Origin: a virus
Direction: 5' to 3' (one strand)
IMG/VR virus record: IMGVR_UViG_3300025896_002212
Location: 1 to 20,197 of that record
Length of the DNA: 20,197 nucleotides
A program made the translations under genes and the position numbers. This document shows positions 423-20,102 of the stretch, piece by piece (position 1 is the stretch's first letter; every line of letters begins with the position of its first letter). The notes beneath the pieces were generated by a model, which saw nothing but the letters and a program-made list of their open reading frames with translations, made no database searches and was not told where the DNA came from.

Positions 423-695
423 CTATTCGGCTTCTTCTTCGGGTGGTTCTTTGCTATCGACTTTGAGGCCGTAGTGCGCACTGTTGCGGGCCCCTAAGCC
501 ACGCAGTAAGGTGCGGACAGCTTGGGCGGTTTCCCCGCCGCGGCCGATCATGCGGCCAAGATCTGACCGTGCGACAAACAACTTAATCAGCACTCCCTTT
601 TCGTCGATGCTGCTTTCAACCTCAATCTTTTCAGGCTCCACACAAATCGCCTCGGCGATTTGTCTAACAAAATCAATGTGTGACGTTGGCTCCAT
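423..695 (-). CDS. khpA: KhpA-like KH-domain RNA-binding protein
   Basis: This 90-residue protein matches the small bacterial KH protein KhpA/YlqC almost end to end. KhpA binds RNA, often as a pair with KhpB, and affects translation and small-RNA function. The KH signature is clear: helix at about 5 to 17, strand VLIKLF at 35 to 40, then GRMIGRGG with the GxxG loop at 51 to 54 (G-R-G-G), then helix TAQAVRTLLRGLGAR at 56 to 70 and a last strand YGLKVD. An acidic tail (EEPPEEEAE-like) makes it about 10 residues longer than typical KhpA. The start has a strong site, GGAGGG, 7 bases upstream. It is the last gene of the leftward operon, before a terminator. A KhpA homologue carried by a phage is unusual; by eye the GVLI...IGRxGxTAxAxRTLLR pattern resembles Patescibacteria KhpA. 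The fold is certain; its role in infection is unknown. Confidence 0.85.
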   Translation of the reverse strand: MEPTSHIDFVRQIAEAICVEPEKIEVESSIDEKGVLIKLFVARSDLGRMIGRGGETAQAVRTLLRGLGARNSAHYGLKVDSKEPPEEEAE

Positions 696-6114: not shown

Positions 6115-6573
6115 TTATTTTAACAGTTCTGGATTCTCATAGATGTTGCCGATGACTTCGCAAACTTCGTTACGGTGGCAGTCCCTTTGTTCATAAAACA
6201 TTCCCAAAAACTTGCGGTCTACAATCGCTAGTTGCTCTTTAACATTTATGGTAGACCAGCAGGCGAAGCTTTCCGACCAAACAACTTGGTGTGTTGACAC
6301 ATGGTTTTTCATGTAGTGGTCTTTAACAATATCCCCCTCATAAATCTCGATACCGTTCTTGTCCTTGAGGCCGGTGTATCTAAGCAATTTCCCATTAGCC
6401 ACAGCTAATTGCTTCATCAAAACCTCCCACGGATGGATATGCGGCTCCTCGACCGGCGAGTTTGAATCGGTGTGGCTCATAGCCTCGACGAGCTCAAGTG
6501 TCCAGGCAAGCGCCCATAGTTCAGCCATGCCGTCTTGTGGTGACCAGACTTTAAATTTAATGTCGTCGTTCAT
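6115..6573 (-). CDS. YopX family protein
   Basis: A 152-residue member of the YopX family, found widely in phages and prophages and without an established function. The family signature is plain: LLRYTGLKDKNGIEIYEGD at 63 to 81, just before IVK, and a closing EVIGNIYENPELL at about 139 to 151. The N-terminal part (FKVWSPQDG) is also normal for the family, with an insertion between about 20 and 50. The start has GGGGAGG 5 to 6 bases upstream and overlaps the exonuclease gene by 4 bases (ATGA). It lies between recombination genes in one early operon. Confidence 0.88.
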   Translation of the reverse strand: MNDDIKFKVWSPQDGMAELWALAWTLELVEAMSHTDSNSPVEEPHIHPWEVLMKQLAVANGKLLRYTGLKDKNGIEIYEGDIVKDHYMKNHVSTHQVVWSESFACWSTINVKEQLAIVDRKFLGMFYEQRDCHRNEVCEVIGNIYENPELLK

Positions 6574-7184
6574 AAGGACCTCCCCTCAATAGCAGACACC
6601 AGCATTGCAACGCGTTCACGCACCCACGGCAGTGCCGCGCCGATATCTTTCATCTTAAATTCTTTAGTAATGATCTTATAGCCGAGGATCTCGGTCTGCT
6701 GCCGGTTCCAAATCTCAACTAGGTAGGCGATCCGCTTAATTCGGATATCGTGAAGCCCAGCCTGGTAAGCGTAGATCGGAAGCTGTTTTGATTTCGAGTA
6801 TCGTTGGACGGCCAGGAGCTCGCCCATAGCGAACGAATCGGCGATGAGGGTCTTGTAGTCGACTATTGTGCTAATATCCGCGCAAACCGCATCAGGACGG
6901 CTGTGGAGCACAACATCGGGCAGAATCTCACTAACAAATTCTTGTTCGACATGACTAATCGGCCAGTCTAGGCCAAAACATTCGGGGATTCGGCCAGTGC
7001 GCTTGCCCTCATTTTCCCACATATCGTGCCTATCGGTTCCAAACTCCATATTGTCGCTTTTGAAGCTTTCGCGGGTTCCCAGGCGCTCGTCGATCACACG
7101 ATCGATTTGCCCCGCTGTGCAGCGGCTCAGTTCGGTATAGCGAGTATGGATTTTGCCATCGTCGGCGTAAAGATAATCAGCCAT
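6570..7184 (-). CDS. PD-(D/E)XK exonuclease, RecB/Cas4-like, partner of RecT
   Basis: A 204-residue nuclease of the PD-(D/E)XK superfamily. I see the helical motif FGTDRHDMWE around H53 (the family His), an acidic residue before the core (about E80), then RPDAV with D98 and IVDYK with D109 and K111, which form the D-(E/D)xK active centre, and the RecB-type QxxxY motif at Q134 to Y138 (QLPIY) followed by AYQAG. Such enzymes resect double-stranded DNA ends in phage recombination, and the RecT-like gene immediately upstream (8-base overlap) supplies the annealing partner, equivalent to RecE/RecT or lambda Exo/Beta. Cas4-type cysteines for an iron-sulfur cluster are not visible. The ribosome binding site is weak, so translation probably couples to RecT. 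Confidence 0.85.
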   Translation of the reverse strand: MADYLYADDGKIHTRYTELSRCTAGQIDRVIDERLGTRESFKSDNMEFGTDRHDMWENEGKRTGRIPECFGLDWPISHVEQEFVSEILPDVVLHSRPDAVCADISTIVDYKTLIADSFAMGELLAVQRYSKSKQLPIYAYQAGLHDIRIKRIAYLVEIWNRQQTEILGYKIITKEFKMKDIGAALPWVRERVAMLVSAIEGRSL

Positions 7185-7974
7185 TGGTGTTTATTCTGGC
7201 CGGCTTGAATGGAACGGCTTTAAGTTCTTTGTGCTTGGCCTCGGCCGCAGCCATCAGTTCCTTGCGGTTGTCTATTTTAGCTGACAGCTCGGCAGGTTTT
7301 TTATTGGTGCCGAGATCGTAATCGTCTGACACTTCGACAATACCCATAGCCGAACCAAGCACGTCAGGAATGTATGTGCTAATGATTAAACTGATCACGC
7401 CATAGCGCAGCTTCTTAATTCGGTTCATACCAGGACGCCAGCCAATTTTAAGTTTGCCGTAGCTGTCGGTCGTGTAGCCGGATGCCACAGCGTCAGCAAA
7501 CGTGAACGTCTCAACGTACTTTTCGCGACCTTTGGTGACGGTCGCAGTGCAAGATTCTTGGCTTTCGTTTGAATACTTAATTTTCCAACCATGTTCGGAC
7601 AGCCGGCGGATCGTGGCCTTGCCCCACACGTTGATCGCACCGTTGACTGGATAAAGCGAGTTCATCGCTTCCATTGGCTTCATTCCCATTTCAGCGCCGG
7701 TTTGCAAACCAACCAGCACTTGCTCGGCCGTCTCCCAAACTTTCGGAATGGCACCGGAACGTATGAAATCGTTGGCCAACGCCTTTAGCTGAATATAGAG
7801 ATTTGGGTCCAAAAAGTTCGTGGCAGTGGTGTCACGAATCGTCATTGGTTTTGAGGCTTCGGGGGGTGCTACTGCTGTCTGCGACGGCTCGAGCTCCCCT
7901 TTGAATACCTCAGCGGTTTCTTCTGGGCTTGGTACCGAAAATTCGGGACCATTAGTTGATGTTGGATCGGTCAT
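7177..7974 (-). CDS. recT: RecT-like single-strand annealing protein
   Basis: This 265-residue protein is a RecT-family single-strand annealing protein, used for phage homologous recombination and concatemer formation. After an unstructured Pro/Ser/Thr-rich N-terminus (1 to 50) comes the conserved core: helices at 55 to 80, GLQTGAEMGMKPMEAMNSLY at 89 to 108, then PVNGAINVWGKA at 109 to 120, beta strands around KIKYSNES and ATVTKGREKYVETFTFADA, and a helical segment MNRIKKLRYGVISLII at 183 to 198. The long disordered N-terminus differs from short RecT proteins. The start has AAGGAG 6 bases upstream; the leader carries a shared promoter/operator element (8005 to 8036), and a putative origin lies directly beyond it. 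It is the first gene of the early operon. Confidence 0.88.
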   Translation of the reverse strand: MTDPTSTNGPEFSVPSPEETAEVFKGELEPSQTAVAPPEASKPMTIRDTTATNFLDPNLYIQLKALANDFIRSGAIPKVWETAEQVLVGLQTGAEMGMKPMEAMNSLYPVNGAINVWGKATIRRLSEHGWKIKYSNESQESCTATVTKGREKYVETFTFADAVASGYTTDSYGKLKIGWRPGMNRIKKLRYGVISLIISTYIPDVLGSAMGIVEVSDDYDLGTNKKPAELSAKIDNRKELMAAAEAKHKELKAVPFKPARINTNG

Positions 7975-8004
7975 AGCGGGCTCCTTTTTTAAATGTACCT
8001 ACTA

Positions 8005-8036
8005 AGCATAGTTAGGAGCTGCTCGCATTGCAAGCA
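8005..8036 (-). promoter_or_regulatory. Candidate promoter and operator for the RecT operon
   Basis: Second exact copy of the 21-base element (8016 to 8036) whose core is gctcgcattgcaagc. On the minus strand it supplies TTGCAA (8028 to 8033), a 17-base spacer and TATGCT (8005 to 8010), giving a plausible sigma-70-type promoter 30 to 60 bases before the RecT start. The dyad covers the -35, so a bound protein could block or modulate it. The exact repeat before the first gene of two adjacent early units argues for shared control. Confidence 0.6.
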
Positions 8037-8040
8037 CTTT

Positions 8041-8284
8041 ATTTTTCACTAATTACTATAATAGTTAATATATAAATAGTAGTAGTTATAGGGCCTGTGG
8101 ATAATGTGTATAAGTTTACGAGCGTCTCTACCCACCTTTGTTAGTAAAAACATAAGCGAAAAAGCGGGGTGTGGATTGCCTGTGGATTCAGTGTGGATAA
8201 CTTTGGGATAACTATTCTATCAGAGACGCTCGCATTTATTTACCCACTACTTATACCCATGTTATCCACAGGTTATGCACAACT
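8041..8284. other. Putative replication origin with DnaA boxes
   Basis: This gene-free stretch has an A/T-rich block (about 8041 to 8090) next to a cluster of DnaA boxes (consensus TTWTNCACA). Reverse-oriented perfect copies TGTGGATAA are at 8096 to 8104 and 8192 to 8200; TGTGTATAA at 8105 to 8113 is also a full match. Two weaker reverse sites, TGTGGATTG (8170 to 8178) and TGTGGATTC (8181 to 8189), match 7 of 9. Forward sites are TTATCCACA at 8262 to 8270 (perfect), TTATGCACA at 8273 to 8281 (full match) and TTATACCCA at 8251 to 8259 (one mismatch). An 11-base inverted repeat (8119 to 8129 with 8222 to 8232) encloses the middle. This layout resembles a bacterial oriC and suggests that the phage or element uses host DnaA for initiation. 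The sites are seen; initiation is inferred. Confidence 0.75.
8119..8232. repeat. 11-base inverted repeat inside the putative origin
   Basis: CGAGCGTCTCT at 8119 to 8129 is the exact reverse complement of AGAGACGCTCG at 8222 to 8232, 92 bases apart. The arms enclose three of the reverse DnaA-box-like sites. The right arm is followed by CATT, so GCTCGCATT there repeats part of the promoter/operator core at 8016 to 8036. It may be an origin-specific protein site or a large hairpin. Confidence 0.7.
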
Positions 8285-8292
8285 TTTAAGTA

Positions 8293-8535
8293 TTACTTGC
8301 GAGTGTCCGCAATAGGAGTAGAGCCCTCGATCGGTACGCTCGCAAAGAGCGGCATCTGCTCACTCTGGATTGCCCCATTCACTAAAGCCACTTGGCCGAC
8401 AGCACCGGCAAAATTATTCTCAATATAGGCCTCGACTGATTCGTCATAAACGGCCTCATCAATGACACCTTTCTTAACCAAGCCCCATGCCAGGTGTTCG
8501 AAATTCCGAAGTCCATCATGCTCGTAAGTGCTCAT
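8293..8535 (-). CDS. Hypothetical protein at the end of the late operon, 80 residues
   Basis: No family is recognised. It is a small acidic protein with a likely helical N-terminal half (NFEHLAWGLVKKGVIDEAVYDESVE region) and no membrane segment. It starts inside the end of the tail fibre-like gene with a 4-base ATGA overlap and GAGG 7 bases upstream. Being last in the tail module, it could be a tail-tip accessory or a fibre chaperone. No terminator is seen after it before the origin. Confidence 0.65.
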   Translation of the reverse strand: MSTYEHDGLRNFEHLAWGLVKKGVIDEAVYDESVEAYIENNFAGAVGQVALVNGAIQSEQMPLFASVPIEGSTPIADTRK

Positions 8536-9122
8536 GGTGCCGCCTCGTAAGTAAAGGTACCGTATATCGATTTACCCGCGCCCCATGCTCCTGGTGATGA
8601 AGAAGAAAAACCAGCCTCTAGTACGTTAGAACCTGATGCCGAAGCCTGCACGATGTCGCCGTGGGTAGTGTCTGAAAATCGGATGATACCGCCGCAAGCA
8701 TTGGCCGAACCGGCGTTTATGCGCAGTGGCCCGAAAGGCATAGCGGCTGCCTGTGAAACGGCAGGGACAGGTAGCGTAAAGGTCGGCACTCCGGTACCCA
8801 TAGCGCTTGTGCTCCCCAGAACAACAGATATACGGCCAATAATCGTATTGCCGATTCGAGTATATTTGCACGCCTGAACGGCGTCACCAATAGTAAGAAT
8901 AGTCCAAGTTGGGGTCCAGTCACTCCATGCGCCCCCGAGTTCGCCGGTCGTGGTTGACAGTTTAGAGTTAGTAATTACACCGGCCGGAATATTATTAAAA
9001 AAGAACGTAATAAGATTTGCTAAAGTGAATCGTTTGGTTGTTGGGCCGGAGGCGGCGTTACCGAGCAAATAGTCCGCGCTGGCGGGACTTGTATTATTTG
9101 GCTGCCCGGATATTTTAGTCAT
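8532..9122 (-). CDS. Tail fibre-like protein
   Basis: The 196-residue protein opens with MTKISGQPNNTSPASADYLL and GPTTKRFTLANLI, the short virion-attachment segment common to many siphophage fibre proteins (pattern: tsaDyl...g.tkrftlanl). The middle WSDWTPTWT and the KYTRIGNTIIGRISV strand (about 86 to 101) belong to a beta-rich C-terminal domain found on phage fibres and head decorations, which probably binds a host surface glycan. It ends in Ser/Gly-rich beta structure. It sits directly after the tail hub gene, the usual place for receptor-binding proteins. The start lacks a strong ribosome binding site and follows the hub stop by 9 bases. A fibre role is likely; receptor identity is unknown. 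Confidence 0.78.
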   Translation of the reverse strand: MTKISGQPNNTSPASADYLLGNAASGPTTKRFTLANLITFFFNNIPAGVITNSKLSTTTGELGGAWSDWTPTWTILTIGDAVQACKYTRIGNTIIGRISVVLGSTSAMGTGVPTFTLPVPAVSQAAAMPFGPLRINAGSANACGGIIRFSDTTHGDIVQASASGSNVLEAGFSSSSPGAWGAGKSIYGTFTYEAAP

Positions 9123-9131
9123 AAGCTCATT

Positions 9132-11408
9132 CTACGTTGGTGTGTCCGGGTTATCAATCGTTTGTTCGTCGGTAAGACCCTTGCGGATTTCTTCGACCTT
9201 GCCGGACGGCTTTTTAGGTAATACCCCCAGTGATAGCGTAACCCCTGTTTTATGTGGAGTTTTGCCAACAATTTGCAAAATTAGATCATCGACAAAGTTT
9301 CCAAATCCCTGAAACCCAATAGTCTCACCAATATGGAAAAGCGTGGTATCGATCGTTTGGTCCAGAATCGTCACTGGCGTTATGTATTCCTCGGCGCTGT
9401 GCGCGGCCGAGTAGTTCTGTGCGATCAATAGGGCAACGGCGTCGTCGGTAACGTGGTTATCGGTGAGTTGCTTTAAGCCAACACGGTTTATAGCCAGTGA
9501 GGCTGCATCTTCGTACTTAACAAATGTGTTCACGCCGGCCGTCGGACCGCCAGTAAAGTAAACCCGGTTGGCGATGTTTTCTTTTGTGGCCTCAATTTCT
9601 AGTAGGTTGATATGCCGACCCTTAACTAACGTATGATCCGCTGTGGCGCTCACAGGCTGGAAATAAAGCGTTGAATCGGCCGGTTCGACATACCAATACC
9701 AATCTTCCGGTGCGAGGCTTACAATGGCCTCAATTGCCTGCTTAATGGTTTGGTATTTAAAGTCATAGTCGGTTGAAACCCCAGTGTCCGCGTAGCCGGC
9801 CGCTAATGAATCGGGGACTGGATCCAGGTGTGCCAGCCCAAAGTATAGTGCTGGGTTTGAAGTGCTATATGTGGCGCTGAATGATGAGTTGTTAAAGGTG
9901 GCACGAGCAATATAAAGTTGGCCAACACCTGTTGCGGTGATTGGCAGATCAGACGAACCGGCACCATACATATTTAAGGTACCGAACCCACCCTGATTGA
10001 AGAATAATAGTAAGAAATAATCGTGGCCGGCTTGTAAGGTGACTGGTGTGGCAATTTCAAAAGTAGTTACTTGAGCGGTGGTGTTAGTGATGGTTTGAGG
10101 GGTAGCTGTTGCGATAAGCGTGCTGCTGCCGTTGTTATCATAATTCCCAACACCACCGATAACAGTCACACCATCACCGGAGGGATCACCCTCATAAATC
10201 GCGACACCCACAAGACAGCTTCCACTACTCACACCTAAATAAAGTTGGATTAGGTTCGTAAGCGTGTCGGCCGTAGGGGTAAATATTTGCGCATACGAGC
10301 ACGACCAGTAACCGGACGGCACGGTTGAACCATGAGCAATTTGTGAAAGATAAGGAACGACCGGGCTGGGCGGGATTAGAATGTGGCCGCCGCGATTTGC
10401 GTAGTCCTCCATAATGCTGGTGAGCATAAAGGTTGGGTCCTCACTGGTGTAGCTACCGACGAGCGAGCCACCAAACTCCCACAAAATGAAGTACATATCA
10501 TAACTGGAGTATTGTGTTGGTGCTCCCCAAGTTGTACCACTAAACGAAGCCAGCCAAAGCGTGCCGTTGGCGTAAGGGTTTGAGCTGCTGCCGTAGGCAT
10601 AGGCCCAGTCATTGCCGCTAAAACTAAGTCGGAAATAATAGGTTGTGCCAGTGGATAGATCAGTCGAAGCGTTGAGGCCAATTTTAACATTCTCTTGGGC
10701 TTTGGGTGTTACGAGCACCGTGCCCGAAGCCACAGTCGGGTCGTTCCCGAGATCCGGCGACGCGCCAATCTGCTCCTGGATAATTACGGAAACATAGCCG
10801 GTTTCGACGCAAGACATTTGCACAGTGATCGCCGAAACGGTTTTGGTAAGGGGCATCGTGAAAGTCTGTATAACCGTTTCCTGGAAGTCGTGTGGTGGGC
10901 TGCCGAAACGGTTATACATACCAACGCTATCGCTTTGAGTAATATATGCCGAATCGCCAGTTTGAACTAAGAAGTTTTGGGTGTCTTGGCCCTCACTCAA
11001 GCAGGTAATTTCGATATCGTCGCCACCGCCAAAAACGGCTTTCCATTTGGATATATAGCCCTCAAAAACAGTAACGCCGTTGGGGTGATACGAAGAAAAC
11101 TCGATAACTTTAATCGTGTTGTGGTTACGAATTAGGTTATCTTCGTTGCTGTCGCCGATTGTGTTCGGTTGGCCGTCGGAGATAATCGGGTTGTCGCTTT
11201 CGTCGGTAATTGGATCGCCGGCCTCGTCAGTAAAAGCTTCGACCGACCTGGTAATTACGTTGGCGCTTTGTCCAACTGAAATAATGACCTGCGTGCCAAT
11301 TGAAGCAATCGGCTGGCTATAGGTAAAATCAGACGTAACGTCTTGCAAGACACCTAAGAATACGCCAGCTCGTGATATTTCATAGCGGTGGGTTTTTTGC
11401 AATGACAT
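9132..11408 (-). CDS. Tail hub/tail-associated protein with two inserted beta modules
   Basis: This 758-residue protein is in the position of the siphophage baseplate hub (Tal/gp27-like), downstream of tape measure and distal tail protein. Hub pieces are recognisable at residues 1 to 155 (YEISRAGVFLGVLQDV, then FEGYISKW and DDIEITCLSEGQD), at about 316 to 345 (DPTFMLTSIMEDYANRGG) and from 540 on (YQTIKQAIEAIVSLAPEDWY, then YVEPADSTLYFQP). Between them lie two beta-sandwich-like insertions, about 165 to 315 and 360 to 528, that resemble each other: both have an FT(M/P) start, a central Tyr-rich strand (TGTTYYFRLSF and AGHDYFLLLFF) and a closing YF(I/G)L. They are candidate carbohydrate-binding modules. 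A peptidase domain is not visible. The protein probably holds fibres and touches the cell surface. Coding is certain; module function is inferred. Confidence 0.83.
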   Translation of the reverse strand: MSLQKTHRYEISRAGVFLGVLQDVTSDFTYSQPIASIGTQVIISVGQSANVITRSVEAFTDEAGDPITDESDNPIISDGQPNTIGDSNEDNLIRNHNTIKVIEFSSYHPNGVTVFEGYISKWKAVFGGGDDIEITCLSEGQDTQNFLVQTGDSAYITQSDSVGMYNRFGSPPHDFQETVIQTFTMPLTKTVSAITVQMSCVETGYVSVIIQEQIGASPDLGNDPTVASGTVLVTPKAQENVKIGLNASTDLSTGTTYYFRLSFSGNDWAYAYGSSSNPYANGTLWLASFSGTTWGAPTQYSSYDMYFILWEFGGSLVGSYTSEDPTFMLTSIMEDYANRGGHILIPPSPVVPYLSQIAHGSTVPSGYWSCSYAQIFTPTADTLTNLIQLYLGVSSGSCLVGVAIYEGDPSGDGVTVIGGVGNYDNNGSSTLIATATPQTITNTTAQVTTFEIATPVTLQAGHDYFLLLFFNQGGFGTLNMYGAGSSDLPITATGVGQLYIARATFNNSSFSATYSTSNPALYFGLAHLDPVPDSLAAGYADTGVSTDYDFKYQTIKQAIEAIVSLAPEDWYWYVEPADSTLYFQPVSATADHTLVKGRHINLLEIEATKENIANRVYFTGGPTAGVNTFVKYEDAASLAINRVGLKQLTDNHVTDDAVALLIAQNYSAAHSAEEYITPVTILDQTIDTTLFHIGETIGFQGFGNFVDDLILQIVGKTPHKTGVTLSLGVLPKKPSGKVEEIRKGLTDEQTIDNPDTPT

Positions 11409-11410
11409 GG

Positions 11411-12184
11411 CTAATACCGCTTATAATACTCGGCTGAAATTGTGTAATTGCGAGTGGTTAGGGTATCGGAGTAATCGAGCGAACCGGGGCCAGCTTCCCA
11501 TTGAGGCAGTGCGCCGACGCCCAGTATTTCATCGCCGTTTAGGGTTATAATCTTGTTTCGCGAATCAATCACGAGCACGTCTGCGGTCGCAAAAGTATTA
11601 GTGATAGTAACCTGCTGGCCTGTATTGGGGTTTCCCACAACAACATCCTTGAGCGTGCCCCCGGTCACAGCGTTAAATACGATCGTAATCACTGGCACCT
11701 GGAATTCTGCGCTACCGCCAACAATAAAGTTGTCGGTGCTGCTTGAGCCGGTTCGCGTTGAGCTAAACAGGGTGGTAGGTGTCACAGCATAGCCATATGG
11801 ATCTGAGCAGATAAATTCTATTTCGATCGTGGCATGGCCACCCTCAACTTCCGAAACGGAGTAATTGCTATAAGTTGCTGTCCATTGCCGGCTACTTGAA
11901 CCATAGTTAGTAACAAGTGCCGCCTCTCTCGGGTGTAAAAGGGCCCTTAATTGATCGATAGAATCATCTAAAAGTTCGCGGGTATTGCGGCCTATTTCGA
12001 CTTTAATATTCATTTTATTGCCGGTAAACCACGCTGAGGTTGTGACTGATTTATTAGATCCAGCCAAAGGCGAATTGTTCACAACGCGATTTGCCGCCCT
12101 ATATGGATCTCTGCCAATTACAATCAGCCCAGTAACATAAGTTGCAAAATCTTTGCCGTTAAAGCTTACTGTTGGCCTGGTCAT
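11411..12184 (-). CDS. Distal tail protein (Dit)
   Basis: This 257-residue protein is the distal tail (Dit, Sipho_tail family) protein, which forms the hexameric ring joining the tail tube to the hub. It has the N-terminal FNGKDF/Y motif, then NRVVNNSPLAGSNKSVTTSAW, a beta-barrel region with IEIEFICSDPYGY at about 122 to 134, and a C-terminal galectin-like half with VITIVFNAV and a closing DYSDTLTTRNYTISAEYYK. Its place between tape measure (4-base overlap) and hub confirms it. The ribosome binding site is weak, so coupling to the tape measure gene is likely. Confidence 0.85.
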   Translation of the reverse strand: MTRPTVSFNGKDFATYVTGLIVIGRDPYRAANRVVNNSPLAGSNKSVTTSAWFTGNKMNIKVEIGRNTRELLDDSIDQLRALLHPREAALVTNYGSSSRQWTATYSNYSVSEVEGGHATIEIEFICSDPYGYAVTPTTLFSSTRTGSSSTDNFIVGGSAEFQVPVITIVFNAVTGGTLKDVVVGNPNTGQQVTITNTFATADVLVIDSRNKIITLNGDEILGVGALPQWEAGPGSLDYSDTLTTRNYTISAEYYKRY

Positions 12185-14475
12185 AATACTGCGACCCCCA
12201 TTCCCTCTAGCTCAAAATCACGATCCAACCTCTTGAGCAGATAATCAGCATCAGCCTGTGAGCCGATATGGATGTCACCGTAAATATTCGTACTGCTAGT
12301 AATTTGCTTACTGCCGGCTCCTTGAGGCGCTAGCTGGCTTGGTGACATAAAGTTACCCATGCCACCGCTCAAGAACGAGCGTAGCATATCGCCAACATTC
12401 ATCAGGTTATCGACTAAGTTAGCAGTCATATTGTGTGGAATGATCTTTGTACCAGATGGGAATAAACCGAGCTCGGCTCCCTCCTCACCAACGATCGCGC
12501 CGCCGCCGGCAAAGTTCTCAGTACCGCGGGCAAAGCGGCCGATATTGGCAACGTGTGGCGTGCCTGGGATCTTGCCGACGGTATTGTTATAGCCACTGAT
12601 CAGCCGGTTAGCGGTGTCAATAATCCAGTTGACGGCAGATTTAAATCCACCTTTCATGCTTTCCCACGCGCCGTTAAACCACCCGCCGATCGCGTTGGCT
12701 ACTGATCTGGCAATGCCCTCAATCGAGCCAAACACACCGCGGAACCAGCCGGCCGCACCTTGCCAGACACTCACGATCCAGTTCCACGCCCCGACTGCCG
12801 CACTACCTATGGCGCCAAAGATCGGTCCGGCAACGCCCCAAATGGCTTGCCAAACTCCGACAATCACGTCCCTTAACCACATGATGCTGCCGACGATCCA
12901 GTCGATGATCGGCTTAATGGCCACACCGTAAATGGCCTGCCAAACATAAACGGCAATTGCGTAAAGGGTATCAAAAACGAATTTGTAATAGTTATAAAAG
13001 AACGTAACCACGGCCATAATCATATTCCAATATGTTGAGATAACCGTCCAAATGGCGCTAAAGACAGTCGAAACGACGTTGAAAATTGCTTGCCAAACAG
13101 CCACCATGACATGCCATAGATCAACCGCGGCGTTCTTAATGCCGAGGAAAATACTCACTGCGGTGCTGCCGAGCCACGATATAACGCTAATTGCTACGTT
13201 CAGACCGTTAATAAATAGCCATAGGTAGACGAGAATCACCCCTCCAATGATTGCGCCAATAACTTTAAGTGCGGTCCATAGAGCCGGCGTGAGGAGGTCA
13301 AATAGCTTTTTCAGTGCCGGCCACAGCCGGGTCATAATCGTATTGAACAATGCCTCGAGGGATGGCTTTAAGAAATTAAATGCCTGTTGCATTCCGCGCC
13401 ATACAGCCGATAGGCCACCCTTTACCTTTTCGAGGACAGCGCCCCATCCACCCATCTTCTGTGCTAGGAGGTTAAATAAGAAGCCCAGGGCTGCACCAAC
13501 AGCTAGGATGGCCGTAGCCCACAACAACATTGGGGCGGCCGAAACCGCCCAGGCGATCATCGCGACAACCAGCGGGCCCGCGATTGCGCCGGCGATCATA
13601 GGAATGTAGGGCTGCATCTTTTTGAGAGCGTCACCCAATTTGGTCATAACACCCTCGACGCCGCCGACTGAATCGAACCAGTCCATCAGCTTATTAATAA
13701 ACGGCGTTGCCGCTTTGGCGATGAAGCCACCAATGGCCTCCTGGACATTATTAAATTGGTTCTTGAGCTTGGCTAATGCACCGGCAAACGTGCCGCCGGC
13801 CGCTTCGGCCGATCCGCCAAATTCAGTTCCCAACTCTTTCAAGATCAGTTTTTGGGCTTCGGCTTTGCGGCCGGTTTCCACCAGATTTTTAATTACCTCC
13901 TGCTGTGATTCGCTAAAGTTCACACCAACACGGCGTAGTGCCGTCACACCAACGATCGGATCCTGCAATGCTTTACCGAGCTGGATCGCCGAGCTTTTGG
14001 TGTCCTGGCCCAGGGCAGTGCTCATATCCAGCACAGTCTTGGTGGCTTCCGGGAAAATGTCCTTACCAATAGAGGTAAATGTCAGCAATAGGTTTTCGGC
14101 CGAGCGGACTTCTTCATCAGAAAACTTAGTAGTTTTTTCAAGAGCGCTGGCCAACTTTTCCACCTCTTGAGCAGTGACGCCGGCTATTCCACCTGTTGAC
14201 TTTAATACAGCGTTTGTCTGCGCAATCATATCCTCGGATTCGGAAAAGGCCTTAACCGAAACCACTCCGAACGCTGTCGCTGCGGCGCCGGCCACACCGA
14301 TCCCCAGCGCTAACTTCTTGCTCGCATTTAATCCACCCTCTAGTGCGTTTCCCATCTTATCGCCGAATGACTTGGTTTTTTGGGCCATGTCCTGCACCTC
14401 ACCGAGGCCACGCTGTAAGTCGTCGGTCTTAGCCTTAATAGTGACGATAATATCGCCGAGGTTGAATCCTGCCAT
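12181..14475 (-). CDS. Tail tape measure protein (TP901 family)
   Basis: The 764-residue protein sets tail length and is threaded in the tail tube. Features in order: an N-terminal DIIVTIKAKTDDLQRGLGEV, a coiled-coil and TP901 core with EKLASALEKTTKFSDEEVRS and AIQLGKALQDPIVGVTAL (about 105 to 180), two strongly hydrophobic membrane-like spans near 290 to 340, then a long region of aromatic repeats with Trp about every 11 residues (VWQAIFNVV, VWQAIYGVA, VWQAIWGVA, VWQGAAGWF), and a C-terminal GGGAIVGEEGAELGLFPSGT typical of tape measures. By the usual 1.5 angstrom per residue the tail would be about 110 to 120 nm, an estimate from family knowledge. The length is modest for a siphovirus. Plus-strand ORFs within this gene are shadows. 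Confidence 0.92.
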   Translation of the reverse strand: MAGFNLGDIIVTIKAKTDDLQRGLGEVQDMAQKTKSFGDKMGNALEGGLNASKKLALGIGVAGAAATAFGVVSVKAFSESEDMIAQTNAVLKSTGGIAGVTAQEVEKLASALEKTTKFSDEEVRSAENLLLTFTSIGKDIFPEATKTVLDMSTALGQDTKSSAIQLGKALQDPIVGVTALRRVGVNFSESQQEVIKNLVETGRKAEAQKLILKELGTEFGGSAEAAGGTFAGALAKLKNQFNNVQEAIGGFIAKAATPFINKLMDWFDSVGGVEGVMTKLGDALKKMQPYIPMIAGAIAGPLVVAMIAWAVSAAPMLLWATAILAVGAALGFLFNLLAQKMGGWGAVLEKVKGGLSAVWRGMQQAFNFLKPSLEALFNTIMTRLWPALKKLFDLLTPALWTALKVIGAIIGGVILVYLWLFINGLNVAISVISWLGSTAVSIFLGIKNAAVDLWHVMVAVWQAIFNVVSTVFSAIWTVISTYWNMIMAVVTFFYNYYKFVFDTLYAIAVYVWQAIYGVAIKPIIDWIVGSIMWLRDVIVGVWQAIWGVAGPIFGAIGSAAVGAWNWIVSVWQGAAGWFRGVFGSIEGIARSVANAIGGWFNGAWESMKGGFKSAVNWIIDTANRLISGYNNTVGKIPGTPHVANIGRFARGTENFAGGGAIVGEEGAELGLFPSGTKIIPHNMTANLVDNLMNVGDMLRSFLSGGMGNFMSPSQLAPQGAGSKQITSSTNIYGDIHIGSQADADYLLKRLDRDFELEGMGVAVL

Positions 14476-14487
14476 GAGCTTATTCTA

Positions 14488-14871
14488 TCACTTAGCTTTG
14501 ATTGATTTGGATTCATTTTGCATTGTGTTGCGGAATTGTTCGAAAGCCGCTGTATCGAGCTCGGCTTCGGCGTCTTCATCACCTCGATACCAGCGACGTT
14601 CGCTCATCAGGTTCTCAACAAACTCTTTGGCATCATCGCCCTCACGGTGAGGATTTGCGACAATGGCAATATCCATAAGATACTCATCAATCTTACGCAT
14701 TTTGATTTGCCGTTGCAGCAAAAAGAAGTCCTCGGGATAAGTGTTAAACATAATATCCCGGAGGCTCCATCCGTATTCGTGGGCGAGCAAGTCGACGGCC
14801 CCATAAAGCCAATCCTCAAAGTCTATTCTTGGGGAGCTGGTTTTTGGATTTTTGCTTTTAGGGCCATTAGT
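14488..14871 (-). CDS. Second chaperone reading frame (T domain), reached by frameshift
   Basis: This 127-residue stretch is in the -1 frame relative to the short chaperone and has no start codon of its own with a good ribosome binding site; a TTG at 14790 is the first formal start and is not preceded by one. It is acidic and helical (HREGDDAKEFVENLMSERRW near the middle) with conserved-looking AHEYGWSLRDI after the junction, the usual T-domain pattern before the tape measure gene. Annotated as part of the frameshift product rather than an independent gene. Confidence 0.75.
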   Translation of the reverse strand, partial: TNGPKSKNPKTSSPRIDFEDWLYGAVDLLAHEYGWSLRDIMFNTYPEDFFLLQRQIKMRKIDEYLMDIAIVANPHREGDDAKEFVENLMSERRWYRGDEDAEAELDTAAFEQFRNTMQNESKSIKAK

Positions 14872-15227
14872 TTTTTTACTGAGGCCACGATTCGCGCGAA
14901 GTCGTTTAGCTCAAAAATGGCAACAATGATATCGACAGCATCCGCACCATCAAGTGAGCCGAGATACTCGGCATCTTGATCGGTTGGTACTGCGATAAGA
15001 GCAACGACGTCCGACCATGATTCGGCTAACACCGCTGGCAACATAGCCAGTAACTCCGATGTGTCCATGTTCTTTATGTCGTTCTTGTCAGCGCCGATAA
15101 TTTGCCCGATTTGCTTAGGCAGTTTATCTAAGGCACGCAAAAGCTCGGCGTAGTCCTTGAGTGCCATTTTGCGCACTTCGACAGCACCGAGCTCCGTGTT
15201 TACGGTAATTGTGTTTGAGTCACCCAT
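14488..15227 (-). CDS. Tail assembly chaperone, long form made by -1 frameshift (gpGT-like)
   Basis: Joined product of the short chaperone frame (15227 to 14871) and the -1 frame (14871 to 14488), about 119 plus 127 = 246 residues. After the slip at the A-AAA-AAA heptamer the new frame reads TNGPKSKNPK and then ...DFEDWLYGAVDLLAHEYGW, continuous with the second reading frame to its TGA at 14488. The -1 frame is open from a TGA about 60 bases before the slippery run, so the shift window is short and contains it. Such long forms bind the tape measure protein and recruit the tail tube protein during tail assembly; they are found between the tube and tape measure genes, exactly as here. The slip itself is not shown, but frame, site and position all fit. 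Confidence 0.82.
14823..15227 (-). CDS. Tail assembly chaperone, short form (gpG-like)
   Basis: A 134-residue protein between the tail tube gene and the tape measure gene. It begins MGDSNTITVNTELGAVEVRK, has a helical body with LKDYAELLRALDKL and AVLAESWSDVVALIAVPTD, and ends KAKIQKPAPQE. Family function: chaperone that coats the tape measure protein. The slippery heptamer sits 16 codons before its stop. There is no clear ribosome binding site upstream (AGTTATTTAAACT before the ATG), which is odd for an abundant protein; possibly translation relies on structure or another mechanism. Confidence 0.78.
   Translation of the reverse strand: MGDSNTITVNTELGAVEVRKMALKDYAELLRALDKLPKQIGQIIGADKNDIKNMDTSELLAMLPAVLAESWSDVVALIAVPTDQDAEYLGSLDGADAVDIIVAIFELNDFARIVASVKKLMALKAKIQKPAPQE
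14871..14877 (-). promoter_or_regulatory. Programmed -1 frameshift slippery heptamer
   Basis: Minus strand reads GTA AAA AAA CTA in the short chaperone frame, so the heptamer A-AAA-AAA fits the X-XXY-YYZ rule with two Lys codons that can re-pair one base back, giving the continuation ACT AAT GGC. Downstream the longer frame is open to 14488, while the zero frame stops at 14823. A GGCCC about 6 bases after the heptamer can pair with a GGGCC 60 to 70 bases further on, but I see no convincing pseudoknot. The 7-base poly-A run alone is a strong slippery site. Confidence 0.8.
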
Positions 15228-15271
15228 AGTTTAAATAACTAGGCTTTGCAACCGAGTACCCAATCGTCTGT

Positions 15272-15784
15272 TTAGCTTATTGAATCACCGATAAAGCCGA
15301 GTAAGTTTCCATCACTCCGACCCTCATCGATCAAACCGTCAAACTCAACAGGCAATACTCTTTCACCATCGTTTTTGAATTCGATGGACAATTCGTTGGT
15401 GACAACTGCCTTATAGATCGCTACGTCGTATGCACGAGTATCGTTCGAAGCAGCATTCAATGGGTGCAATAGCAAAAGTCCCGCATTCAAACTAGCGCGC
15501 TTACCAGCATTTGAGCCCATAGAAACAGCGTCGTCACCGACTAAAGTTCCCTGGTTAATTGCCCGCTGGAGGTTGGCTATTGTGAATTCGGCTAGTGAAA
15601 CTTTCGCTGAAAGGCTTTCGCCGACCAGGAACTTCTCAACTTTAGACTTACCGTATTGATCCACTGATGTCTCGTGATATTCCGGGCTATAAACCACAGT
15701 AACACCACCAATGGTGTGACCAAGATCTACGCCTTTATACGTCACGGAACAGACACCAAGCTGAATTTTAGTTGCGTCTGCCAT
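15272..15784 (-). CDS. Major tail (tube) protein
   Basis: The 170-residue protein forms the tail tube. It shows the N-terminal KIQLGVCSVTYKGVDLGHT, VTVVYSPEYHETSVDQYGKS and KVSLAEFTIANLQRAI (about 62 to 78), a pattern seen in siphophage tube proteins, and ends with a strand of PVEFDGLIDEGRSDG. The start has AAGGGAGAACGAT immediately upstream, a good ribosome binding site as expected for a highly expressed gene. It precedes the chaperone pair, which is diagnostic order. A 44-base gap to the chaperone gene holds no visible terminator. Confidence 0.85.
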   Translation of the reverse strand: MADATKIQLGVCSVTYKGVDLGHTIGGVTVVYSPEYHETSVDQYGKSKVEKFLVGESLSAKVSLAEFTIANLQRAINQGTLVGDDAVSMGSNAGKRASLNAGLLLLHPLNAASNDTRAYDVAIYKAVVTNELSIEFKNDGERVLPVEFDGLIDEGRSDGNLLGFIGDSIS

Positions 15785-15807
15785 ATCGTTCTCCCTTGTT
15801 TAAATTG

Positions 15808-16050
15808 CTATTTTTGGCCCGACCGTTTAGCCGGCTTTCGCTGGCGAAACACCAATACCATTATCCTACCACAATTAGCGCAGCGCAATTGAATCCGGCC
15901 GCGAAAAATAAACTCGTAACCGATTAATTCTCCACACTTTAAACAGTTGATCGGCCGAAAGATTCGACCCTTGTTGTCGCGCAGTATATCACTAGCTGGT
16001 GATGGAATCGCCGTACCTGATTTGTGCGGTGAAGTTGATGGAGAATTCAT
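15808..16050 (-). CDS. Zinc-ribbon protein (Com-like) between tail genes
   Basis: The 80-residue protein has two Cys pairs, C36-x2-C39 and C57-x2-C60 (CLKCGE ... CANCGR), a compact zinc ribbon reminiscent of the phage Mu Com protein that binds mom mRNA. A Pro/Ser-rich N-terminus (1 to 25) and a very basic C-terminus (FRQRKPAKRSGQK) flank it. The ATG at 16050 has GAGGGG 6 bases ahead, which supports the 59-base overlap with the previous gene. It sits between the tail terminator and tail tube genes. Com-type mRNA binding or a structural role are both possible; similarity is by motif only. Confidence 0.6.
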   Translation of the reverse strand: MNSPSTSPHKSGTAIPSPASDILRDNKGRIFRPINCLKCGELIGYEFIFRGRIQLRCANCGRIMVLVFRQRKPAKRSGQK

Positions 16051-16420
16051 AACGCCCCTCGTCGTCTTGCCCTATTGGATATCCGTCTTGTTGAGCCTGA
16101 ATATACAGGCAGTAATAATTTGGTAAAGCGACCGCTAACTTGTCGTGCAAAAGTGACCTGACATCGCGCAAAACCTGTGAGCCAGTTTCGTAATCAGCAT
16201 TGCGAACGACGACCTGGAATCGGGGATATTCAAAGTCTGGAATATTAATATTTGGTAGGGTTGAGCCGATTAGCCCCAGCAAAGCAACACAATCGTCTGG
16301 ATCTGAGGGGTAAATACCACAAAAGATGTTGACGATGCCATTATCGGGGTTCGTTTCGCCCATGCCATTGATCGATAAATAGTCGGCCAATTGCGAAAGA
16401 AAATCAATTTTGCGCGACAT
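15992..16420 (-). CDS. Tail terminator/completion protein (minor capsid 3-like)
   Basis: The 142-residue protein has the pattern of siphophage tail terminators or head-tail completion proteins: an N-terminal helix FLSQLADYLSI, a beta-rich segment YPRFQVVVRNADYETGSQVL at about 65 to 84, a helix DVRSLLHDKL, then IQAQQDGYPIGQDDEGRYEF and a final strand SINFTAQIR. This 'minor capsid protein' family (named for its Pfam members) lies just before the tube gene in many siphophages, as here. It overlaps its upstream neighbour by one base (TAATG). It caps the tail where it meets the head. Confidence 0.75.
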   Translation of the reverse strand: MSRKIDFLSQLADYLSINGMGETNPDNGIVNIFCGIYPSDPDDCVALLGLIGSTLPNINIPDFEYPRFQVVVRNADYETGSQVLRDVRSLLHDKLAVALPNYYCLYIQAQQDGYPIGQDDEGRYEFSINFTAQIRYGDSITS

Positions 16421-16776
16421 TATAGGTTATCCCCAAATGATTTGCTAAACCTGATCCCCAGGACGTTAGCGTTTCGATTAATTGGATCCTCGAGATACTT
16501 ACCTTTTCGACCTTTTTGGAATCGATACTCGGGGTGCTCATGCAGCCGGGCGGCATAGGGCTCATGGTAGCCAACAATAACGTCGTCACCGATCTGCTCC
16601 ACATTACCAGAGTTTTGGAGCGAACCTTTATCGTGAGGGACTTCTTGCTGGCTCAAACGCATAATCTCATAACCGATATCGAGAGCGGATAATTTCTTAG
16701 AGTTCTCGGCTTTCTTGCCGAGTTGGCGAATGCTGGCGATGAAGCCACTGGTATCAACTTGAATACTGCCTATCAT
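16420..16776 (-). CDS. Neck/head-tail joining protein (minor capsid 2 or gp10-like)
   Basis: The protein of 118 residues (from the ATG at 16776) matches the head-tail connector group that includes HK97 gp10-type and minor capsid 2 proteins. The hallmark is QEVPHDKGSLQNSG followed by VIVGYHEPYAARLHEHPEYR, then FQKGRKGKYLEDPI. Its place between head closure and tail terminator is the expected one. The ATG at 16776 is preferred over a GTG at 16785 because AGGAG lies 8 bases upstream and it forms an ATGA overlap with the previous gene. Confidence 0.8.
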   Translation of the reverse strand: MIGSIQVDTSGFIASIRQLGKKAENSKKLSALDIGYEIMRLSQQEVPHDKGSLQNSGNVEQIGDDVIVGYHEPYAARLHEHPEYRFQKGRKGKYLEDPINRNANVLGIRFSKSFGDNL

Positions 16777-17093
16777 AGGTTCCACTCCTGTACCATTAGC
16801 TCAATGTGGCGGGTAGCGCCGTTGCGATCAATCATCGGCTCGATGGTCATAACTCGGTAGTCGACTGAATCAAAGGTTAATTTATCGTCACGAGCCACCA
16901 CGGCGGTCGCTGACAGCCAAACAACACCATTAATGGGTTCTCGCTCACGTTGCGTGGTTGCGATCACCCTAGACGTTTTCTGAAAGCGACAGTCATATTC
17001 GACGGCAGTACCTTGTGTCTTTTTACCAAATTTGTCCTGGGCGCCGGCCGTGGAGATCGTGCACAATTGTTTGAGTAAGTGATCTAGGTTCAT
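16773..17093 (-). CDS. Head closure (head-tail joining) protein
   Basis: This 106-residue beta-rich protein resembles the small stopper or head-closure proteins (minor capsid 1 and gp15/gp16-type). It has an N-terminal helix MNLDHLLKQLCTI, a short strand with VEYDCRFQKTSRVI, and a C-terminal DDKLTFDSVDYRVMTIEPM strand-turn-strand and a closing HIELMVQEWNL. It overlaps the adaptor gene by 4 bases and the neck gene by 4. No strong ribosome binding site is present, so translation is probably coupled. Confidence 0.75.
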   Translation of the reverse strand: MNLDHLLKQLCTISTAGAQDKFGKKTQGTAVEYDCRFQKTSRVIATTQREREPINGVVWLSATAVVARDDKLTFDSVDYRVMTIEPMIDRNGATRHIELMVQEWNL

Positions 17094-17800
17094 AGTGTCG
17101 TCGGATTGTCGTTAATTAGCTCGCCACCAGAGTTTTTAAAACCAACCAATAACGATCGGACCCTCGGCGAAACTAATTCGACAGACGCAGCGGCACCCGA
17201 GCCACCTCGGGAATAAGAGTAGTTGCCAATCCGTTCACTATTGACGTTTGAATCATTGCCAGTAAAGAAGTCGTCACCCTTAGAGATAAAGTAATCGATC
17301 TGAGCGGCAACCGCCTTTTTAATAGCTTCCGGAATAGTCTTATAAATCGAAGTGCCGTCGCGGTTGCTGTTGACGTCTGAACCACGAGGGAATTTAGCTA
17401 ATTGGTAGATCTTATAAATCGAAGTCGAATCGGGCGCAGTGTCCCAGGCATCGACAATCGTAACTGACTTGCTGGACCTTGTGGAGCTCGCAATATAGCG
17501 GATCTGGCCAGCCCCAGTACCGCCGATGATTTCGATTAAACAACGGGCGTAAGTTCCATTCGTAACATCCAGTGGAGTACCTGATCCAGTATCGATAACA
17601 TTCAGTGAATTTACAGAGGTGACTTGTCCGGTCGCCATTTGTTCGACACTCTTGCATTGGTAGCCGATATAATCGTCAATTGCCTTTTCCGCACGGTCCA
17701 ATTGGCGCAGGGCTTCGTCATTATCGGTGACAGTTAGGTTGGACAGGATTTGCAACTCTGCGATAGTCAAATAGTTTCGAGGAGTAGTTGTTAGGCTCAT
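17090..17800 (-). CDS. Head-tail adaptor (connector) protein with inserted beta domain
   Basis: The 236-residue protein is a gp6/gp15-like head-tail adaptor: an N-terminal YLTIAELQILSNLTVTDND and RQLDRAEKAIDDYIGYQCKS helical half, and a C-terminal AIKKAVAAQIDYFISKGDD helix with SVELVSPRVRSLLVGF. Between about residues 58 and 135 lies an inserted small beta domain containing GTGAGQIRYIASSTRSSKSV and VDAWDTAPDSTSIYKIY; this module occurs inside other phage proteins too. There is no Shine-Dalgarno sequence: the ATG directly follows a 7-base-stem hairpin (17801 to 17819). Confidence 0.78.
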   Translation of the reverse strand: MSLTTTPRNYLTIAELQILSNLTVTDNDEALRQLDRAEKAIDDYIGYQCKSVEQMATGQVTSVNSLNVIDTGSGTPLDVTNGTYARCLIEIIGGTGAGQIRYIASSTRSSKSVTIVDAWDTAPDSTSIYKIYQLAKFPRGSDVNSNRDGTSIYKTIPEAIKKAVAAQIDYFISKGDDFFTGNDSNVNSERIGNYSYSRGGSGAAASVELVSPRVRSLLVGFKNSGGELINDNPTTL

Positions 17801-17819
17801 AAACTGAGTATATCAGTTT
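17801..17819. other. Hairpin directly upstream of the adaptor gene
   Basis: AAACTGA at 17801 to 17807 is the exact inverse complement of TCAGTTT at 17813 to 17819 with a 5-base loop. On the coding strand it ends at the base before the adaptor ATG, where a ribosome binding site should be, and includes the TGA of the upstream gene. It could keep the start accessible only when the upstream gene is translated, or mark processing. Confidence 0.65.
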
Positions 17820-17995
17820 TTAGTAAACCAACTGCCCGAATTTGGGGTTTGCCAATCGCCGGCCGCGCCGTTGGTAGATATCTGGTCCCAGGTGACAACT
17901 GGGTCATCCCACAGATAACGATCACTATCCCATAGGGCAAGCACACCGAGTAAGCGGTTATACCAGGGCGTTTTCGTTTTAGTGAACCAACTCAT
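17813..17995 (-). CDS. Tiny Trp-rich protein, 60 residues
   Basis: The 60-residue protein starts MSWFTKTKTPWYNRLLGVLA and ends GSWFTKN; W occurs seven times in the sequence and both ends repeat SWFTK. At DNA level a 16-base repeat with one mismatch (TTTTAGT(A/G)AACCAACT) lies at 17818 to 17833 and 17977 to 17992. It sits between the fibre or decoration gene and the adaptor gene, a position often filled by small head or decoration proteins. It is probably a virion or assembly protein, but no family is recognised. The start has only a weak ribosome binding site. Confidence 0.6.
   Translation of the reverse strand: MSWFTKTKTPWYNRLLGVLALWDSDRYLWDDPVVTWDQISTNGAAGDWQTPNSGSWFTKN
17818..17992. repeat. 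Direct repeat flanking the tiny Trp-rich gene
   Basis: TTTTAGT(A/G)AACCAACT occurs at 17818 to 17833 and at 17977 to 17992, differing by one base. It encodes the SWFTK peptide at both ends of the 60-residue protein. It may reflect duplication of a coding piece or an assembly repeat; a cut-and-paste origin is possible but untested. Confidence 0.6.
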
Positions 17996-18014
17996 GTGCT
18001 CAGTTTACAGCAAC

Positions 18015-20099
18015 TTATGCGGTCGAGAAAAAGAAGTCAGCATTGGATAGAACTGGTGGGGCGGAAGCTAACCAATTTGTAGTTCCAGACACCAGTACAC
18101 CATTCACACCACAATATGCTGGGGTCGTTATAGAGGCAGTTATATCTTTAACAGACAGGTAATCACAGCTCACAATTCCGGTAGTAAAGGCAAGCGTTGC
18201 AGCCACTCCAGCCGTTTGGGTTTCAATGCTCATCAATTTGCCGCTAGTACCGTTTACGTTAAACTTCGTGCCATCTCTAATGGTGAACGTAAGCCCAGCC
18301 TGGAACCGCAAAGTCCGAGCATTCGTTGCGTCGCTAAAGTTAATTGCCCCAAACGAATCGCCACCTGTACCACGAATGTATAGCCGGCCAGTTGAGCCGG
18401 CCACCGTGTAGGTAAGTGTGCCTAAAATGTTACCGTTACCGACAATATCTCGTTGGTTAGCCGATGCATTAGCAACAACAATATTAGTGTTTGTCATGCT
18501 CTGAGTAAGCCCACTGCTCACTTGAATCCATAAGTTTGATGCTGTGGTATTGGTAAGGTTTATAGTTGCTGTACCACCCGTAAGGCTGCGCGTGGTTGGC
18601 GATGGTGAAGAAAAGCTTAGTAGTGCAATCACTTGGCTATTAAAGTCTAAACCACCGTTATTATGATTGAGAGCACCTGTGGTCGTAAAAGCATCTTGGA
18701 ACGTGTATGAACCACCAAAGGAATTTATATTAAAGGTCGCTCCCCACGTTTTGCCAGCCGATGTAATAGTATGGGTACTGCGACCAGCAAGAGTAATAGC
18801 TGAACCAGTGGAATTAGTCATACCCGACCCAAGTGTGAGGCTACCAAATATAGTGTTAGCTGTACTGGTTGTTGCGAGTGTTCGAGTGAAGCCCGTACAT
18901 GTCAGGTCAGCACACATTCTCGGCATATCTGCTGTGTAGGTACCTGCGGCAGAGTTAGCATCTAAAATTACTGTATCGTGACAGAGTGGCACGCTAACAC
19001 CCCCCGCACCACCAGATGTTGCCGACCATGTTGCGGTACTTGACCAGTTACCAGCGACGACTCCATATCTCGTGACAGGGGTAGTGAATGTTATGCCAGA
19101 ATTACCCAATGCGTTACCAAGAGATGTCCCTGTAAATGGTGAAGCTGCTCCTGCACCGGCTATGTCCATAAAATCGACATTGCTGAGAGAGACAGCGGCT
19201 GCGGTCACAGTTCTAGTAGTCCCTAGTATGTTTGTGTTGACAAGTGCTCTGTTGATAACAGAGTTGCCATTAATAGTGAATGTGCCAGTTGTCGTTATGT
19301 TTCCATACAGAGTCAGAACATTTGTCTTGGCGGCTGTACCCGTAAATGTAAAGTTAGCGAATGTGAGGTTTGTTGTTACGCCGGTATTAGCAACACCCCC
19401 AGTGAATACTAAGGACATCCCATTCCAGTTGAATGTTTGCCATGTAATAAATGATGCACCATTAGCGCTACAAGTAACAACGCTAGTATTTGCAGTTACA
19501 GTTAGGTTTGTTACATTAACATTCCAAGGGCTGGTTGTGCTCAGGTTCAAAGCTGATGCACCCAATGTCAACACTCGTGTATTAGTATTGTTTGAGTTAA
19601 ACCCACCGGCCGTTACAGTCTTGCCATTCGTATCAAGTGTGCCATTCGTTAGTGTTAGTATGGCTGTACCAGATGCCCCAACTTGTAAGGCACTGTTCAA
19701 CGTCCAGCCACCACCCACGCCTGTAAAGGTTACGCTACCAAGCGGCCACCCCTTTGTGTCGATTGTAAAACCAGTTGAGGTTGCGGCAAAAGTTTGTGTT
19801 GAAAATGCCGTCCCAGAAGGTGTTACAGAAGCATTAAGCGTCATGCTTCCATAGATGTTTACATTCACAGCGCCACCCATGTTAAACGTTCCGGTGAAAC
19901 CAGTCATATCAATACTGCGCATGACAGCAGCAGCCGTCCACTGGTAAGCGCCAGAACCGGAGTTTGCATCTATAAACACATCGTCGCTAGACGTAGGAAC
20001 AGAAGCACCTGACGCACCACCACTAGTAGTTGACCAGTTATTTGTGTCCGTACCGTTGTGGAGTGTTGAACCACCTGCAACCCAATAGCGATTCGCCAT
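18015..20099 (-). CDS. Large beta-rich fibre or decoration protein, internal duplication
   Basis: The 694-residue Thr/Ser/Gly/Asn-rich protein is two copies of one module, about residues 1 to 340 and 342 to 694. Each opens with RYWVAGG...NWSTTSGGASGASVP or its diverged copy RYGVVAGNWSSTATWSATSG, followed by a (S/H)D(D/T)V(F/I)(I/L)DANS element, then beta-strand repeats with TLTNGT, GSLTLG and GSMTLN motifs, and closes with an SLSNVDFMDI / YLSVKDITASI element. The RYWVGGTGxW...TSGGAGGASVP start is one I know from environmental phage structural proteins, probably parallel beta-solenoids; function is usually attachment or capsid decoration. The start has AGGAG 8 bases upstream. It lies at the head end of the late module, before the head-tail adaptor gene, so a head fibre or decoration is likely, though a tail fibre is possible. 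The plus-strand ORF inside is a shadow. Confidence 0.78.
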   Translation of the reverse strand: MANRYWVAGGSTLHNGTDTNNWSTTSGGASGASVPTSSDDVFIDANSGSGAYQWTAAAVMRSIDMTGFTGTFNMGGAVNVNIYGSMTLNASVTPSGTAFSTQTFAATSTGFTIDTKGWPLGSVTFTGVGGGWTLNSALQVGASGTAILTLTNGTLDTNGKTVTAGGFNSNNTNTRVLTLGASALNLSTTSPWNVNVTNLTVTANTSVVTCSANGASFITWQTFNWNGMSLVFTGGVANTGVTTNLTFANFTFTGTAAKTNVLTLYGNITTTGTFTINGNSVINRALVNTNILGTTRTVTAAAVSLSNVDFMDIAGAGAASPFTGTSLGNALGNSGITFTTPVTRYGVVAGNWSSTATWSATSGGAGGVSVPLCHDTVILDANSAAGTYTADMPRMCADLTCTGFTRTLATTSTANTIFGSLTLGSGMTNSTGSAITLAGRSTHTITSAGKTWGATFNINSFGGSYTFQDAFTTTGALNHNNGGLDFNSQVIALLSFSSPSPTTRSLTGGTATINLTNTTASNLWIQVSSGLTQSMTNTNIVVANASANQRDIVGNGNILGTLTYTVAGSTGRLYIRGTGGDSFGAINFSDATNARTLRFQAGLTFTIRDGTKFNVNGTSGKLMSIETQTAGVAATLAFTTGIVSCDYLSVKDITASITTPAYCGVNGVLVSGTTNWLASAPPVLSNADFFFSTA

Positions 20100-20102
20100 A
20101 GG

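Follow-up and report, generated by a model that had tools for sequence, protein, structure and literature searches.

The window analyzed here is a stretch of 20,197 bp from an IMG/VR virus record. It contains an intergenic region of 318 bp (7975-8292) lying between a recT-like gene (7177-7974, minus strand) and a gene for an 80-amino-acid product (8293-8535, minus strand), the latter being the last gene of the tail operon; the recT-like gene and the tail operon both read leftwards. The GC content of the region is 37% compared to 49% in its surroundings. Five of the phage genome's 12 perfect DnaA boxes are located inside this gap. All five perfect matches to TTATNCACA fall within the 186 bp from 8096 to 8281, and just one more is present in the window, at position 752. 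In 1000 dinucleotide-shuffled windows the maximum was two perfect sites per 190 bp versus the five observed, and 20,000 shuffles of the gap alone also produced at most two perfect TTATNCACA sites. The first-pass annotation had reported a dense set of DnaA boxes in a gene-free stretch at this location, and this cluster lies far above the shuffled expectation. Each of the strong sites it had named was recovered (TGTGGATAA at 8096 and 8192, TGTGTATAA at 8105, TTATCCACA at 8262 and TTATGCACA at 8273), as were the weak sites at 8170, 8181 and 8251.

Two additional weak sites in the same phase, at 8203 and 8240, had been overlooked, and with both of these included the cluster forms two opposed arrays of four sites each. 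The left array (8170-8211, minus strand, reading TGTGGATAA on the plus strand) consists of 9-mers starting at 8170, 8181, 8192 and 8203 which carry 2, 2, 0 and 2 mismatches to TTATCCACA, while the right array (8240-8281, plus strand) consists of 9-mers at 8240, 8251, 8262 and 8273 with 2, 2, 0 and 1 mismatches. Both arrays have a pitch of 11 bp, leaving 2 bp between neighboring sites, and they face one another over 28 bp; the earlier observation that the left and middle boxes point one way and the right boxes the other is seen in this arrangement. The eight array sites have 11 mismatches in total, compared to 30 in the best of 2000 dinucleotide shuffles when all pitches from 9 to 14 bp were allowed. 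Shuffling with the perfect boxes fixed in place (n = 2000) gave a best result of 21 mismatches. The DnaA-box cluster is a stronger observation than was initially stated.

To the left of the arrays, a perfect DnaA box TTATCCACA (8096-8104, minus strand, reading TGTGGATAA on the plus strand) is abutted without a gap by a second box, TTATACACA (8105-8113, minus strand, reading TGTGTATAA on the plus strand). Outward from this tandem pair are found the sequence GGCC (8092-8095, plus strand), which forms the spacer to the first box, followed by the DnaA-trio-like run TAT-AAA-TAG-TAG-TAG-(TTA)-TAG (8071-8091, plus strand) and then the weakest 50 bp. The run contains TAGTAGTAG, which occurs a single time in the ~37.9-kb circle described below, beside the tandem boxes. 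Its trio score is equalled at 139 of 75,712 positions, and it is broken by one triplet, TTA (8086-8088), which lacks the central A. The A/T-rich block recognized in the first reading of the sequence lies at 8041-8090 and is a predicted DNA unwinding element; no other 50 bp anywhere on the circle are less stable (-47.7 kcal/mol, z 5.0, with the next best at z 3.0).

An inverted repeat of 11 bp had also been described, and two such pairs were found in the region. The first has its left arm, CGAGCGTCTCT, at 8119-8129, within a 28-nt inverted match, and its right arm, AGAGACGCTCG, at 8222-8232 in the gap between the two arrays; the second is CCTGTGGATAA/TTATCCACAGG at 8094-8104/8262-8272. Repeats of the GACGCTCGC type were considered as a second motif and rejected, as GCTCGCA is present 14 times across the circle and the 11-bp inverted pair alone thus stands out. 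No RNA family was detected by Rfam in the intergenic region, nor at gathering scores in the window, in the phage sequence L132 or in the relative L002, and a scan of 7900-8600 for promoters and terminators returned none above shuffles.

The window was joined to a second IMG/VR contig, 3300006805_002624, which overlaps it at both ends, to form a circular map of 37,916 bp. The contig matches the window at 99.9% over 6324-20197 and at 98.9% over 1-2122 (24 gapped positions), and its other 17.7 kb sits between these two matches. The joints of the circle were drawn from overlap and not from reads; the closed map is as would be expected for a circular or circularly permuted genome. The gapped positions are near window position 2122 in the gene at 1061-2266, where the contig has eight extra residues (TEYRDVTV). 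Nearly all of the longest open frames of the circle run in a single direction. Recognized packaging and head genes encode a gp3-like small terminase, a large terminase, an SPP1-type portal, a minor capsid protein, a scaffold and a P22-like coat protein. Other recognized products are glycosyltransferases, Cpn10 (GroES-like; L132:12494-12790), a GH25-LysM endolysin, a GDSL esterase, KhpA, an epimerase, an endonuclease-like protein, the RecT-like protein and YopX. The gene for KhpA, a KH-domain RNA-binding protein, is at 423-695 (minus strand) of the window and has a match in just one other of 50,697 phage records.

Among genes of the replication and recombination type, only those for RecT- and exonuclease-like proteins were recognized on the circle. 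The RecT-like single-strand annealing protein (PHROG 4171, E 1.3e-8) is encoded by the first gene downstream of the intergenic region. The adjoining gene (6570-7184, minus strand) has no Pfam match and is related to PHROG 1706, annotated as "CRISPR/Cas system associated" (E 7e-5); by its position, its product is a probable recombination nuclease. Profile searches with DnaB_C and Bac_DnaA, both of which give matches in control genomes, produced none in either contig. Among the scanned proteins, a set that leaves out several tail-region proteins and a few others, no primase, polymerase, initiator or replicative helicase was recognized, and neither was an integrase or partition gene. The earlier remark that no initiator or helicase gene lies beside the site can thus be extended, for the scanned proteins, to the entire closed map. 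The suggestion of a plasmid-like prophage state was not borne out, with no integrase, partition, plasmid or lysogeny genes recognized in the same set.

A change in GC skew at the site had been proposed as a check. The cumulative GC skew reaches its minimum at ~8.87 kb of the circle and the DnaA-box region lies at 31.8-32.0 kb, so this expectation failed. A turning point in GC skew is a common but not a defining property of oriC-type origins, and skew is unreliable in a 38-kb phage genome whose genes are almost all on the same strand. A perfect hairpin, TTATCCACAGG-tgtaaaag-CCTGTGGATAA (L132:8834-8864), comprising two inverted perfect DnaA boxes, was observed just after the coat gene, no more than about 20 bp from the skew minimum; this may be a second DnaA site or a terminator-like element.

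Apart from the skew and an unbroken trio run, all of the sequence features testable here appear to match a bacterial oriC. On this basis the region is probably a replication origin of the oriC type that depends on host DnaA. The phage apparently borrows the host's DnaA, because no initiator or helicase gene is recognizable in the reconstructed circle; the original proposal of a DnaA-box origin dependent on host initiation is supported by this and by the oriC-like anatomy. We computed the sites, their spacing and orientation, the duplex weakness, the circular map and the lack of a recognizable initiator or helicase gene, and we infer DnaA binding, unwinding, origin use and a recombination-dependent late phase, which may proceed as follows. 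Host DnaA-ATP would bind the three perfect TTATCCACA boxes and two close variants, and DnaA would spread cooperatively over the two opposed arrays. The tandem pair at 8096/8105 would guide the DnaA filament onto the TAG trios, and the A/T-rich block at 8041-8090 would open. DnaA would bring in the host helicase, and the host replisome would copy the circularized genome. Later, RecT and the neighboring nuclease would build concatemers for packaging.

Relatives of the phage RecT are few, numbering five and then 12 viral loci. The nearest, L002 and L003 (72%), do not have the box cluster, and it is also absent from the DNA examined of the RecT relatives L134, L139, L140 and L142, so the element is not a shared feature of its own RecT lineage. 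Other modes of replication must exist in that lineage. A further RecT relative, L144, has a cluster of TTTTNCACA sites. At the place of the phage origin region, L002 has a long gene-free stretch (2250-2930) with several inverted repeats and no Rfam match, which may be a different origin or may encode a structured RNA. L002 also has a small ORF (6500-6751) resembling the KhpA gene, and two of its ORFs, 11302-11598 and 12009-13667, resemble GroES and GroEL by eye. A search of isolated phages and plasmids returned no convincing nucleotide relatives of the origin region.

A scan of genome contigs for KhpA produced no match, and the host was then approached through RecT. One RecT relative (L134, 50% identical) comes from a metagenome bin, where its contig also carries an integrase-like gene. 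Genomes in the order and phylum to which this bin belongs, here the candidate host lineage, are small, at about 0.4-2 Mb, which fits with Patescibacteria. The best matches of the phage KhpA are in this same lineage, at 46-51% identity. The host that we infer from this one RecT in a metagenome bin and the KhpA similarity is thus a candidate assignment. Two same-strand DnaA boxes at 11-bp pitch are present at 22 of the 30 dnaA loci of the candidate host family; same-strand pairs at this distance number 24, with five or fewer at any other distance up to 40 bp. The dnaA locus of L160 provides an example, TTATTCACAGGTTATTCACAGTTG, and the right array of the phage has TTATCCACAGGTTATGCACAACTT. These pairs suggest that the presumed host lineage uses the phage's box at the phage's spacing.

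It is conceivable that the cluster serves as a DnaA sink or timing site of the datA or DARS kind, which would titrate or reload host DnaA and thereby slow host initiation or favor the phage, and would not be an origin. A dense group of strong boxes could titrate DnaA, and a further inverted pair of perfect boxes is present in the phage, in the hairpin after the coat gene. A sink, however, could work without an unwinding element, without trios and without opposed phased arrays, yet the weakest duplex of the genome is located at the box pair, and under this explanation a phage with no recognized initiator would also be left with no origin. We consider it improbable that the region is a sink. Regulation of transcription is similarly doubtful as its main role: DnaA bound in the gap, which is directly upstream of recT, would control the recT-exonuclease operon, along with read-through arriving from the tail operon, in the manner of DnaA acting at the dnaA promoter. 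The 11-bp box pairs near dnaA in relatives of the candidate host, perhaps autoregulatory, are consistent with this. On the other hand, no sigma-70-like promoter was found in 7900-8600, which is weak evidence, and ten box-like sites with opposed arrays and a trio element are more than a promoter needs. Transcriptional and origin roles of the region can be compatible with one another.

The TTATCCACA-like sites could also be recognized by a phage-encoded repeat-binding protein acting as an iteron-type initiator or regulator. Several phage genes belong to no known family, and a divergent initiator could be overlooked by family scans. Nevertheless, the motif is the exact DnaA consensus, the 2-bp spacing between sites is that of DnaA arrays, no Rep, O-like or DnaA-like protein was recognized among the scanned proteins, and the candidate host family uses an identical box and pitch, all of which make such a protein very unlikely. 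An injection-stop or packaging signal of the T5 type can be given almost no weight, even though DnaA boxes have been reported for the injection stop signal of T5 (PMC13250531): such a site would be expected close to where a first-step-transfer terminal repeat ends and T5 has fixed terminal repeats, whereas here two contigs with different ends close one circular map without fixed ends, and the cluster has a mid-genome position, with tail genes on one side, recombination genes on the other and the terminase genes about 8 kb away.

The first-pass annotation held that few phages use DnaA this visibly. This does not stand: three TGTGGAT motifs at 11-bp pitch are present in at least 120 IMG/VR contigs, and 387 isolated-phage records contain matches to a 37-nt box array (E up to 10). 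Spacing of 11 bp was rejected as a unique mark of viral DnaA arrays, since three TGTGGAT at 12-bp pitch are likewise found in at least 120 IMG/VR contigs, many of them in open frames; four contigs have them at 10 bp. Four other viral contigs (L049, L107, L111 and L118) carry convergent TGTGGATAA/TTATCCACA arrays with the 11-bp pitch. These resemble the phage region in array layout, being in or near gaps on contigs with terminase or portal-like genes, but they belong to different phages with different neighboring genes, and no sequence relationship to the phage region was seen. In L111 (7672-7866), the two convergent arrays together hold ten perfect DnaA boxes and adjoin A/T-rich DNA containing TAGTAG/CTACTA runs. 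Another viral contig, 150 kb long, has five DnaA boxes arranged head to tail at 9-bp pitch with no gap between them (L009:497-541).

Of the 101 contigs with arrays that were compared, 42 have their weakest 50 bp no more than 300 bp from the array, versus 7.9 expected by length alone, a difference that is supportive only, as gaps are A/T-rich in any case. TAGTAG beside other viral arrays is weakly above background (11 versus about 6.6 expected). An origin has been predicted with Ori-Finder in a Pseudomonas phage (PMC11512268), and a limited search of open-licence literature turned up no account of a full double array of the oriC type in a phage. DnaA-box arrays as such are not rare in phages.

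A broader and more tentative proposal, which we regard as possible but would not yet favor, is that the phage infects ultra-small, reduced bacteria (probably Patescibacteria), has given up every gene for replication initiation and copies the host oriC so closely, with opposed phased arrays, a trio-type unwinding element and tandem boxes, that the host handles it as a second chromosome origin, and that such mimics have arisen repeatedly in unrelated phages. If the region is a host-DnaA-dependent origin, its near-ideal DnaA geometry in a phage with no recognized initiator would make it a naturally occurring minimal oriC, about 250 bp long. Were the host a member of the Patescibacteria, it would open a way to study replication in a group that is difficult to culture, and might supply an origin for replicating vectors there.

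In well-studied phage origins such as those of lambda and P1, a phage-encoded initiator bypasses or supplements DnaA. The origins of P1- and F-type plasmids, phage-plasmids and lambda carry iterons for their own initiator (RepA, O), whereas no initiator gene was recognized in this phage. The P1 origin also needs host DnaA and carries DnaA boxes (PMC5043065). On its unwinding side, the phage region resembles the basal unwinding system of the Bacillus subtilis type, which is made up of a DnaA-trio element (3'-GAT-5', i.e. 5'-TAG-3'), tandem boxes and a short GC-rich spacer (PMC8287927, PMC10721633), a GC-rich gap of 4 bp being typical (PMC8287927). Both have co-oriented tandem boxes and a short GC-rich spacer; the adjacent A/T-rich DNA of the phage continues this order with a trio-like run, which differs in being broken once by TTA, and its unwinding is predicted. 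In E. coli oriC, two opposed groups of four sites are also separated by 2 bp between sites (PMC6070618), and there too an A/T-rich unwinding element adjoins a TGTGGATAA box with TTATCCACA boxes at the far end (L180). The phage element is shorter than E. coli oriC and does not lie beside replication genes. Its array sites are near-consensus, with 0-2 mismatches, whereas the low-affinity arrays of E. coli oriC are too degenerate for the same scan to detect. The phage sites are therefore closer to the consensus than those of E. coli, and would permit a clean test of the joint action of opposed arrays and DnaA-trios.
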